Notes: generated by a model from the sequence alone, not told the origin. DNA of 64,000 bases from Natrialba aegyptia DSM 13077 (GCF_000337535.1 NZ_AOIP01000014.1:124001-188000), one strand, 5' to 3'. Counted from the stretch's first letter, positions 40,369 through 43,257 are shown. Numbers and translations: made by a program.

Positions 40369-40420
40369 CGCGACCGCGACCGATTCTCCGCTTCAGTATC
40401 GCAGTGATTCTCGCCGCCCC

Positions 40421-40443
40421 CACCCCCTGTTCAGACTGAAAGC
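40421..40443 (+). other. Origin-recognition-box-like element ORB-a
   Basis: C-run then TTCAGACTGAA, a dyad (TTCA-GAC-TGAA). With six relatives around orc1/cdc6 it fits the haloarchaeal ORB plan of a dyad next to a G-string (C-run on this strand). Confidence 0.65.
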
Positions 40444-40501
40444 GGCGCGAACCGCCCCGGGGTAGAACTCGACATACTCACGCGAGATTCTGTCTCCCCC
40501 T

Positions 40502-40523
40502 ACCCCCGTCGTTCAGACTGAAC
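40502..40523 (+). other. Origin-recognition-box-like element ORB-b
   Basis: ACCCCCGTCG followed by TTCAGACTGAA, directly abutting the orc1/cdc6 stop at 40524-40526. Same orientation as ORB-a, about 80 bases away. Confidence 0.65.
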
Positions 40524-41816
40524 TCACGAGAACGAGGAGAGGTCCGTCTCGATGTCGCGCTTGTGCGAAGAGCCGCCGGTATTCGCGAGCTGATCGTAGG
40601 CTGGTAACTCTTCGAGCGAAGAGTCGCGTCGAACCGCCTTGACGATGTGCTTCGGGTCCGTCACGAGCCGATGGAGGAGATAGCTCCCCTGCGAACGGCC
40701 GCCGCCCGTTTTTTCGGACTCGATGACGCCGAGAAAGGCCTGTTCTTTGAGCTGTCGGTACAGACCGTTCTCCGTGATCGGATCGTTTGCAACCATCTCG
40801 CAGATTCCGACGTATCGCTGGTAGATTTCCCTCGTCTTGTACGTCTCGCGGTCACCGGTGATAATACGGCTCGCAAGCGAGTAGAGCGCGAGTTTTGCGT
40901 GGACCGTCGCCCCGCTCGTCAGTTCTTCGATCCGATTGATCTCGGCGACCTCCTGGGCCTGCTGGATGTGACTCTCGGAGACGGTCTCCGAACCGGTTCG
41001 CCGAGCGAGTTCACCCGCTTCCTTGAGAATCTCGATGGCTTTGCGGGCGTCGCCGTGTTTCTTCGCGGCGAGGGCGGCGCAGAGTTCGATCGTCCCGTCC
41101 TCGAGAACGTCGGGCTGGAAGGCGTCCTCGCGATTTCGCATGATCTCACGGAGTTGGGAGGCGTCGTAGGGGTGAAAGAACAGTTCGCGATGGCCGAAAC
41201 TGCTGTCGATGCGTTCGTCGAGCGTTTCACGGTACTGGACCTTGTTGCTGATGCCGATCACGCCGATGTAGGCGTCGGTTTTACGCGCCTCGCGAGCGCG
41301 GGAGAGTTGCATCAGGATGTTGCTGTTATCGAGTTTGTCGATCTCGTCGAGGATGATGATCGTCGCGTCGAAAAACGACTCCAGGATTCTCCAGATGTGT
41401 TGGTAGTACTCCATTGTCCCGACGCCGCGAAGCGGAATGTGGTCCTGGTAGCTCGTTTGTTCCGTGAGGTTGAGCGCGAGTTGTCGCGTTGCCCGCGTTT
41501 CCGTATTCGCCTCGGAGCAGTCGACGTAGAGGACGCTACAGTCGATATCGTTGTCCCGAGCGGCATCCTGTGCTCGCGTCGCAACGTGGCGAGAGATGAG
41601 ACTCTTTCCGGTACCGGTCTTGCCGTAGATCATCACGTTGTTCGGCGGATCGCCGCGAGTGATCGCGCCGACTTCGGCAGCAACTGACTGAATTTCGTTG
41701 TCCCGGCCGACAATGCGATCCTCATCGGGAACGTGTCCAACGTGTAAGAGTTCTTTCCGATTGAAAATCGGATCGTGAGATTGAAAGAGCGGGTCCCCAC
41801 CAGCCGTATCAGCCAT
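40524..41816 (-). CDS. cdc6: Orc1/Cdc6 replication initiator
   Basis: 430 residues. AAA+ origin-binding ATPase that opens archaeal origins and recruits MCM. Walker A is YGKTGTGKSLI, Walker B IIILDEIDKLD, sensor 1 GISNKV, and arginine-containing GDARKAIEILKEAGELA marks the lid. The C-terminal winged helix (TREIYQRYVGICEMVANDPITENGLYRQLKEQAFLGVIES) binds the ORB. A TATA box sits 23-32 bases upstream of the ATG, so the leader is minimal. Conserved box elements lie on both sides of the gene. The type of Cdc6 (oriC1-linked or other) cannot be told without comparison. Confidence 0.96.
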   Translation of the reverse strand: MADTAGGDPLFQSHDPIFNRKELLHVGHVPDEDRIVGRDNEIQSVAAEVGAITRGDPPNNVMIYGKTGTGKSLISRHVATRAQDAARDNDIDCSVLYVDCSEANTETRATRQLALNLTEQTSYQDHIPLRGVGTMEYYQHIWRILESFFDATIIILDEIDKLDNSNILMQLSRAREARKTDAYIGVIGISNKVQYRETLDERIDSSFGHRELFFHPYDASQLREIMRNREDAFQPDVLEDGTIELCAALAAKKHGDARKAIEILKEAGELARRTGSETVSESHIQQAQEVAEINRIEELTSGATVHAKLALYSLASRIITGDRETYKTREIYQRYVGICEMVANDPITENGLYRQLKEQAFLGVIESEKTGGGRSQGSYLLHRLVTDPKHIVKAVRRDSSLEELPAYDQLANTGGSSHKRDIETDLSSFS

Positions 41817-41838
41817 GCTTCTATTCTGGAAGACGGGT

Positions 41839-41848
41839 ATTATAAAAC
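41839..41848 (-). promoter_or_regulatory. orc1/cdc6 TATA box
   Basis: Read leftward the bases give GGTTTTATAATA, a good TATA element ending 23 bases ahead of the start codon at 41816. ORB-like half-site TTCAGACTGA lies at 41861-41870 immediately behind it, so initiator binding could repress its own transcription. Confidence 0.65.
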
Positions 41849-41860
41849 CAGGGGAAAGAA

Positions 41861-41874
41861 TTCAGACTGATAAC
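41861..41874. other. ORB-like half element ORB-c
   Basis: TTCAGACTGATAAC at the edge of the orc1/cdc6 promoter. It has the dyad but the G-run lies on the left (GGGG at 41851-41854) and the C-run is missing, so it is a degenerate member. Confidence 0.45.
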
Positions 41875-41972
41875 GAACAGCAATGATAGAACTATTCCGA
41901 AATGAGCGTTAGATGACGCCGTATAGCGCGAGTTCGTGTTCGAGTTCTCGGAACCAGTGCTCCGAACGGGCC

Positions 41973-41995
41973 CGCCCCTGATTCAGAGTGAAACG
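41973..41995 (+). other. Origin-recognition-box-like element ORB-d
   Basis: CCCCTGA then TTCAGAGTGAAAC, identical in its core to ORB-f at 43076. Located about 150 bases upstream of orc1/cdc6. Confidence 0.7.
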
Positions 41996-42088
41996 GGCGA
42001 AGGTGGGGATGGGTCACGACGGGTCGGTACCGAGCGTACCGTTGCGGTGGTCCTAAATAGAGCGATACGGCGAGGAGGGACGGATCGC

Positions 42089-42137
42089 CAAGTACGGGTC
42101 ATCAAGTACGGACTATCAAGTACGGATCACCAAGCGG
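42089..42137. repeat. 14-bp iteron array near the origin
   Basis: CAAGTACGG occurs at 42089, 42103 and 42117, exactly 14 bases apart, with a degenerate fourth copy (CAAGCGG) at 42131; the intervening bases are AT-rich (GTCAT, ACTAT, ATCAC). Iterons of this kind bind initiators in plasmids. Here they lie between ORB-d and the 3' end of the flavoprotein gene. Confidence 0.7.
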
Positions 42138-42156
42138 ACGAAACTGTGGGCCGTTT

Positions 42157-42657
42157 CTACTCGAACTGCCAGCGCGTCGAGGAAACCGACGCATCCAGAC
42201 CGAAGCCGAAGACCGTCACCGGGGTTACTTCGTACACCTCGTACGGTGGGTCCCCCGCAGTGGGAGCGCCAACAGCGTAAAATGCACCGTCACGAACCTC
42301 AACCTCCCACTCGTATTTAGTCGCATACACATCGGCCGCGTTCTGGAGCGCGGTTTCGTCGCTCCGCTTCGCCGCCTCGCCTTCGATCACGAAGTGGAAC
42401 GCGTCCGTTTCGGCCGCGAGACTGCAGGACGGAACGGCTGTGAGATTCCCAACCTTCCGCGTGGCTGCCCCCGAACAGAAGTACATCGCGTCCGCAACCC
42501 AAACGGCGAGCAACGGCCGAACGTGTGGTCGCCCGTCCGGATGCACCGTTGCGAGCCAGTAGTAATCGGCTGCCCCAAGCTGCTCGCGCGCATCCGCCCA
42601 CGCAGTCGCGTTACCGTCTTCGAGGGGCTGTGTTTCCGGTTGTTTTCTTCGAGTCAT
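42157..42657 (-). CDS. Pyridoxamine 5'-phosphate oxidase-family protein
   Basis: 166 residues. FMN-binding split-barrel: YYWLATVHPDGRPHVRPLLAVWVADAMYFCSGAATRKVGNLTAVPSCSLAAE is the common half of the family, including the conserved Arg-Pro and Lys-x-x-x-Leu. These small proteins may act as F420- or FMN-dependent oxidoreductases. The C-terminus has a beta hairpin (VYEVTPVTVFGFGLD). It sits inside the origin region, between ORB-d and ORB-e, with no operon partner. Confidence 0.87.
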   Translation of the reverse strand: MTRRKQPETQPLEDGNATAWADAREQLGAADYYWLATVHPDGRPHVRPLLAVWVADAMYFCSGAATRKVGNLTAVPSCSLAAETDAFHFVIEGEAAKRSDETALQNAADVYATKYEWEVEVRDGAFYAVGAPTAGDPPYEVYEVTPVTVFGFGLDASVSSTRWQFE

Positions 42658-42936
42658 CGATGCTCACCACATTTTCTTCGGTCGCTACCCACATGAACAG
42701 CGCGCCACACGGCAAATAGACGATAGAACGACGATAACCAGTGTGTAACCGCTCTGTCCAATCTGTACCCGTTCTTTCCCCGGTTGTTCTTCCGTCCTAG
42801 TCTAGTCTCGTATTGTATGTTCCGATATCAGAAATTCTCGCCGAAAACGGCCCACCTATATTTCACGCTCGTCCCTCACCGAAACCGGCGACGAAACCCC
42901 ACCTCTTCCAACCCCCTCCCGGCCCTCGACCGAATA

Positions 42937-42954
42937 CACTCTGAATTGGGGGTG
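42937..42954 (-). other. Origin-recognition-box-like element ORB-e
   Basis: Reading leftward, CACCCCCAATTCAGAGTG; the final dyad arm is imperfect (TGTA instead of TGAA). Opposite orientation to ORB-d and ORB-f. Confidence 0.55.
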
Positions 42955-43075
42955 CCCCTGGGTGAGTACATTCGACTCGTCGGTTCGACAATCACTGCAT
43001 CGGCTCTCATCCGCTATCTCGCTCGAAAACAGGTACTGCTCACCGTGAGAACCGTCGATAGCTCGGGAGAACACC

Positions 43076-43097
43076 ACCCCTGATTCAGAGTGAAAAC
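43076..43097 (+). other. Origin-recognition-box-like element ORB-f
   Basis: ACCCC then TGATTCAGAGTGAAAAC. The core TTCAGAGTGAA equals that of ORB-d, 1.1 kb away, and it faces ORB-g. Confidence 0.72.
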
Positions 43098-43135
43098 AAT
43101 TCGACGGACATCGATCCTCCGCGCCGGCCGTTTCA

Positions 43136-43157
43136 GTTTCACTTTGAACGAGGGGTG
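43136..43157 (-). other. Origin-recognition-box-like element ORB-g
   Basis: Reading leftward, CACCCC then TCGTTCAAAGTGAAAC; core TTCAAAGTGAA. It forms an inverted pair with ORB-f, 38 bases apart, a typical origin arrangement. Confidence 0.68.
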
Positions 43158-43257
43158 TCTCAGCGGGCTACCGGTCGGTGAGCGCACCCGGGTACACCAC
43201 GAGGGGGCGAACTTCGTAATCCGTACTTTCACGTCACCGCTTCACGCACACTGAGAC

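Follow-up and report, generated by a model that had tools for sequence, protein, structure and literature searches.

A candidate secondary replication origin with its own class of recognition boxes beside an orc1/cdc6 gene of Natrialba aegyptia

Introduction

Does the DNA around an orc1/cdc6 gene of Natrialba aegyptia DSM 13077 hold a replication origin and, if so, of which class? Haloarchaeal origins need an adjacent cdc6 gene and cognate origin recognition boxes (ORBs) (PMC3936714). In the stretch analyzed here (the window; 64,000 nucleotides, NZ_AOIP01000014.1:124001-188000, our G000:C13:124001-188000), seven repeated elements around such a gene had been interpreted, in an original prediction made from the sequence alone, as ORB-like boxes, six of them with an adjoining G-string, that may belong to a Cdc6 class other than that of oriC1. 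The questions raised by this locus are whether the repeats exceed chance, whether they belong to the initiator gene beside them, and whether an origin is the best explanation for them. We consider it highly probable, judging from comparative sequence evidence, that the locus is a secondary, orc1/cdc6-adjacent origin cassette of a non-oriC1 class with an ORB class of its own. The term "candidate origin" used in the original prediction has the right strength: the origin may be active, weak or dormant, and we lean only slightly towards active firing in normal growth.

Results

The core of the locus consists of the initiator gene, its promoter element and six full boxes, numbered by position with the promoter element in third place:

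40524..41816, minus strand: orc1/cdc6 initiator gene, 430 aa, with AAA+, Cdc6 lid and Cdc6_C winged-helix domains
41838..41875, minus strand: orc1 promoter with TATA-like TTTTATAAT and, just upstream, box-like TTATCAGTCTGAA without G-string (the element predicted at 41861); probable operator
40416..40440, minus strand: box 1, ORB-like, downstream of orc1, TTCAGTCTGAACAGGGGGTGGGGGC, matrix score 34.3
40498..40522, minus strand: box 2, ORB-like, just past the orc1 stop codon, TTCAGTCTGAACGACGGGGGTAGGG, matrix score 27.5; N. taiwanensis and N. asiatica have a box at the corresponding position
41968..41992, minus strand: box 4, ORB-like, proximal, ~170 bp upstream of orc1, TTCACTCTGAATCAGGGGCGGGCCC, matrix score 27.7
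42935..42959, plus strand: box 5, ORB-like with variant core, TACACTCTGAATTGGGGGTGCCCCT, matrix score 20.6; the N. magadii counterpart in the matching place is TACACTCTGAACAAGGGG
43070..43094, minus strand: box 6, ORB-like, TTCACTCTGAATCAGGGGTGGTGTT, matrix score 30.9
43138..43162, plus strand: box 7, ORB-like, TTCACTTTGAACGAGGGGTGTCTCA, matrix score 31.7

Exact copies of TTCANNNTGAA occur five times in the window (40430, 40512, 41982, 43084 and 43138) against 0.33 expected from shuffled windows, and none of 100 shuffles reached five. Two further cores, TTCAGACTGAT at 41865 and TTCAGAGTGTA near 42942 on the minus strand, deviate by one letter; the dyad TTCA-N3-TGAA, claimed for all seven elements, is exact in the other five. 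The C-run described beside six of the elements is indeed present, the promoter element at 41865 being the one without it, and these six also fit the complete box, TTCACTCTGAA-N3-GGGGTG, with the consensus TTCA(C/G)TCTGAA-CGA-GGGGTG. Boxes 6 and 7 form the expected inverted pair, G-strings outward, although their cores lie 43 bp apart and not 38. This pair is also found in N. magadii and, together with pair 4/5, arranges the upstream boxes as inverted ORB repeats with G-string.

Pattern searches of the whole Natrialba genome (4.62 Mb, 65 contigs) yielded 49 palindromic TTCANNNTGAA sites, five of which fall within these 2.7 kb (Poisson P ~1e-10). The extended pattern CCCCN0-6TTCANANTGAA has six distinct genomic sites, five at the locus, while its reversed control has none; within the window, five matches to the full pattern compare with 0.00 expected from shuffles. 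The sixth genomic site, C8:26522, sits within coding sequence and was rejected as a chance match. We trained a weight matrix on orthologous loci of other, non-Natrialba genera (31 loci, 123 sites); across the window it found six matches of at least 8 bits, all at this locus and scoring 20.6-34.3. The same six box positions were recovered in N. magadii, where 1.98 Mb of background gave a top score of 17.0 and nothing comparable to the six boxes. Among the matches listed, a literature text search for the box sequence returned unrelated medical or primer papers, and a scan of viral contigs gave a single lone match with no relative of orc1 or of its neighbors within the 3.8 kb covered.

The orc1/cdc6 gene that had been predicted between these boxes is real: its product scores 389.9 bits against TIGR02928 (cutoff 181.3), matches Pfam Cdc6_lid, Cdc6_C and AAA, and aligns with the archaeal Orc1/Cdc6 structures 2v1u and 2qby, so that an intact initiator gene (>300 aa, AAA+ plus winged helix) directly adjoins the boxes. 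In N. asiatica (L050) orc1 reads about 75 nt longer than in related species (tblastn span 1365 versus 1290 nt), which suggests a small in-frame insertion.

Boxes and initiator occur together. Among 125 Natrialbaceae genomes, in which orthologues were counted by hand (identity 84-100%), 60 carry a close Orc1 orthologue, with the cassette of boxes, orc1 and boxes kept at one locus in the order gdh–citE–ORIGIN–orc1–gdhB. The box pattern is present in all 60 of these genomes versus 3 of the 65 without the orthologue, and the reversed-pattern control is absent from all 125. In two of the three exceptions (G016 and G093), citE and gdhB are still neighbors, orc1 is gone and one box pair is left there; these relic sites (L204 in G016, L206/L209 in G093) constitute a natural remnant of a lost initiator. 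Of 29 Natrialbaceae genera sampled, 12 hold the cassette, its synteny being mostly fixed; the nearest named relatives of the window genome are N. taiwanensis and N. asiatica. The cassette is also carried by a 241-kb plasmid of Halobellus ramosii (NZ_CP101826.1), whose orc1 is 76% identical and is followed by five boxes ~53 bp apart (L213:7315-7552). The comparisons suggest that the box class is specific to the adjacent initiator family. On the same plasmid, a toxin-antitoxin pair of the MazF/AbrB type lies directly upstream of orc1. In Natronorubrum bangense, the locus and its neighbors appear both on the chromosome and on an 828-kb plasmid record (L057, L059), suggesting a duplicated large segment or an assembly effect.

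Box order and orientation are conserved across genera as well. At least two upstream boxes are present in 36 of 37 loci, and a downstream box of constant orientation lies within 700 bp of orc1 in 34, the other three having one or two boxes elsewhere (L082: +1.4 kb); no box lies within orc1 in any of the 37, and in most of them the DNA from the proximal to the innermost upstream box is AT-rich. The proximal box is found 131 to 337 bp upstream of orc1, mostly at 170-240 bp, in the same orientation in nearly all loci. Outside the boxes, the spacer of the window for the most part cannot be aligned with that of N. magadii or N. hulunbeirensis, which makes the boxes visible as a phylogenetic footprint.

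The promoter element is likewise fixed. The window shares it with 24 further Natrialbaceae loci, where TTATCAGTCTGAA or TATCAGTCTG likewise stands at -56 (twice at -55) from the orc1 ATG, with slight variation in its outer letters, and two Haloferacaceae relatives (L081, L082) have a similar TTCACTCTGA just upstream of TATA-like CTTATTAC. TTATCAGTCTGAA resembles the ORB core without its G-string and is probably the orc1 operator; autoregulation of orc1 through this element would be the natural reading.

Between the orc1 start and box 5, the window also holds one gene and AT-rich DNA:

42157..42657, minus strand: ppox, a PNPOx/F420-type oxidoreductase gene, 166 aa, PF01243
41817..41916, no strand: AT-rich stretch between the orc1 start and box 4, 39% GC, among the 0.2% most GC-poor 100-bp windows of the 64 kb
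42640..42880, no strand: AT-rich candidate unwinding region beside box 5, with a minimum of 46% GC at 42734-42833 in a setting of 62% GC

Where relatives have no gene inserted, the proximal box and the innermost of the upstream boxes face each other, cores inward and G-strings outward, and enclose an interval of 36-58% GC with 100-bp minima of 21-45%, in loci of 55-67% GC. With an inserted gene, the box interval is at 57-60% GC overall. In the window, ppox splits it and leaves two AT-rich stretches; the original prediction had called for a low-GC scan, and such patches do exist, though they are modest (39% and 46% against 62%). Besides the window, N. taiwanensis and N. asiatica alone have ppox between the boxes, whereas Natrinema gari has an HD-domain gene in the corresponding place (L073:5064-5798). 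Units of 14 bp (ACGGATCGCCAAGT-like) are repeated in tandem at 42080-42134, between the 3' end of ppox and box 4.

The locus differs from oriC1 in Orc1 clade, box core and location. The oriC1 box of N. magadii, TCCAGTTGAAACGAAGGGGTG / TCCAGTTGAAACGAAGGGGTGGGGG, forms an inverted pair with the core GTTTCAACTGGA plus G-string, a core unlike that of the window, as had been suspected. In the tree, the window Orc1 falls into a 100/100-supported clade apart from the oriC1 Orc1; deeper joins are not to be trusted because several paralogue branches are long. Finally, oriC1 of N. magadii is predicted at 1.96 Mb (PMC3403918), and the orthologue of the window locus lies at 2.37 Mb. Other initiators have boxes of their own: the next Orc1 family (52-53% identity, 7 loci) has no exact dyad near orc1, and a box that is similar to the window class but distinct from it (CACTCTTGACGAGGGGTG or CACTCTGGACGAGGGGTG) is enriched in its flanks, while four further Orc1 genes in the window genome are flanked by repeats of their own, TTTCACCGGAAACCCGGTG, ACACCCCCGTCGCGGATGTAA, ACCCCCCTCGTTCGGAATGAG and TTCATTTGAAATCCGGTG. 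Altogether, the proposal of ORBs with G-string of another Cdc6 class passed every sequence test that was run (co-occurrence, layout, clade and oriC1 box). A different G-string repeat, CTCACTCGGTACGAGGGGTGTGG, occurs in four or more copies in low-GC DNA elsewhere in N. magadii (L113, 337501-357500), where it probably marks another origin or box cluster.

The suggested GC-skew check, made together with AT skew on 100 samples of 20 kb from the N. magadii chromosome, gave no signal, either at the locus or at oriC1: the cumulative GC skew did not span a wider range than it did after the order of the samples was shuffled (p 0.46).

Discussion

How might such a cassette work? Known archaeal Orc1 proteins read ORBs by their winged helix and the G-string by the AAA+ domain. 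By analogy, the Orc1 encoded at 40524-41816 would read the dyad TTCACTCTGAA by its winged helix and the GGGGTG string by its AAA+ domain. The upstream boxes 4-7, whose cores point inward and G-strings outward on either side of AT-rich DNA, would then serve MCM loading and DNA opening, the promoter box at -56 would allow Orc1 to regulate its own expression, and the downstream boxes 1-2 may bind spare Orc1 and thereby damp initiation, as at oriC2 of Haloarcula hispanica. For binding, firing, autoregulation and titration alike, we thus infer the roles from known systems.

Two other explanations of the repeats fare poorly. C-runs are common in GC-rich DNA, and one could imagine a chance cluster or a low-complexity artifact; yet the full pattern, seen five times, never arose in shuffles, reversed-pattern controls found nothing in 125 genomes, and a matrix trained in some genera succeeded in others, and we take this explanation as refuted. 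Alternatively, an unrelated regulator might use the repeats as operators to control gdhB, citE and orc1, as the dyad symmetry of the repeats, their positions in promoters and between genes, and the conserved metabolic neighbors gdh2, citE and gdhB could suggest. We regard this as very improbable, since the boxes follow orc1 and remain with it among different neighbors (the Halobellus plasmid, Halegenticoccus and Halogeometricum loci), and since haloarchaeal ORBs show the same G-string extension and inverted arrangement (PMC3528665).

A more serious alternative accepts the link to Orc1 and holds that the boxes are purely regulatory, Orc1 controlling its own gene and storing spare protein at a dormant or dead origin. 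The fixed box at -56 and the almost constant presence of downstream boxes fit this well, and several observations that weigh against an active origin point the same way. Since ppox splits the unwinding interval, the GC content of which rises to 59%, the upstream part might no longer open efficiently in the ppox clade. The natural loss of orc1 in two relatives (G016, G093) shows that the cassette is dispensable, and comparable orc-adjacent haloarchaeal origins are documented to be sometimes dormant (PMC4595724). Against the origin reading as a whole, our literature search returned no replication, binding or autonomously replicating sequence (ARS) data for the locus; a box belonging to the OWN_C44 paralogue reaches 20.6 in the window-class matrix, so that cross-binding is possible; and the GC skew of N. 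magadii is without significant structure, which says nothing here because oriC1 itself is not visible. Nonetheless, boxes 5-7, which lie as far as 1.3 kb from orc1 and on the other side of ppox, keep their score and orientation despite a largely unalignable spacer between Natrialba species, and the box-AT-box layout is intact in most genera, both of which speak against purely regulatory sites. We hence judge a regulatory role alone unlikely and favor the secondary origin cassette.

Concerning the inserted genes, a tentative scenario, which we think less probable than its negation, is that ppox in the N. taiwanensis/N. asiatica clade and, separately, the HD gene in the N. gari group settled within a conserved origin's unwinding interval without loss of the boxes. 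Such an origin would either fire across the insert, through the distal pair 6/7 or the two AT-rich sites, or have become a purely regulatory or titration array. If true, species with and without insert would show how an archaeal origin gets switched off or re-engineered.

What is most informative about the locus is its fixed address, a promoter box that looks like an operator, and a natural series of versions that are intact, split by a gene or devoid of the initiator. Non-oriC1 origins have been described as almost randomly distributed among haloarchaea (PMC3528665); if the cassette fires, Natrialbaceae chromosomes would have a second origin with its own initiator at a fixed address across much of the family, and the locus would therefore be an exception to this near-random distribution. 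The intact, gene-interrupted and initiator-less versions in close relatives provide a natural set for tests of active, dormant and dead origins, and the fixed promoter box offers a direct test of initiator autoregulation.

Among known systems, the closest is an orthologue already predicted as an origin. In Natrinema sp. J7-2, oriC11 (3151118-3151637) and oriC12 (3153862-3154084) were predicted with Ori-Finder 2, with 3 and 1 ORBs (PMC5350488). The lengths of oriC11, gap and oriC12 are identical to those of the stretch from gdh2 to the HD gene (520 bp), the HD-orc1 block (2224 bp) and the stretch after orc1 (223 bp) in N. gari, which identifies the locus as orthologous; the gene between the distal boxes and orc1 is an HD-domain gene there and ppox in the window. 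Judged from the tabulated coordinates, none of the fragments that this study cloned for ARS tests contains the oriC11/oriC12 locus; its text names oriC12 as cloned, whereas its table lists the plasmid concerned under oriC10 (PMC5350488). A 2012 survey of 15 haloarchaea had predicted origins beside five of the seven chromosomal orc genes of N. magadii (PMC3528665). Of the families defined by Wu et al. 2012, with membership at 80% or more Orc/Cdc6 identity to named members, oriCa is reported to show no gene-order similarity among genomes, and the N. magadii member of oriCb is Nma_3611.

Other origins resemble the locus in different respects. Like oriC1 of haloarchaea and other archaea, it has inverted boxes with outward G-strings adjoining orc1/cdc6, with AT-rich DNA that is modest here, while box core, Orc1 clade and neighbors are different. 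In layout it resembles oriC2-cdc6E of Haloarcula hispanica, a non-oriC1 chromosomal origin beside its own cdc6 with boxes on both sides, which is fired by the adjacent cdc6E and damped by the downstream ORB cluster oriC2D (PMC3936714). A cluster downstream of the initiator is found in the window too, where it consists of two predicted boxes, whereas oriC2D has 11 ORBs and proven negative control. In Haloferax mediterranei, oriC4-cdc6H, likewise a secondary ORB/cdc6 cassette beside other origins, is dormant until these are removed and has been described as recently acquired (PMC4595724); the cassette of the window, in contrast, is spread over 12 of the 29 Natrialbaceae genera sampled.

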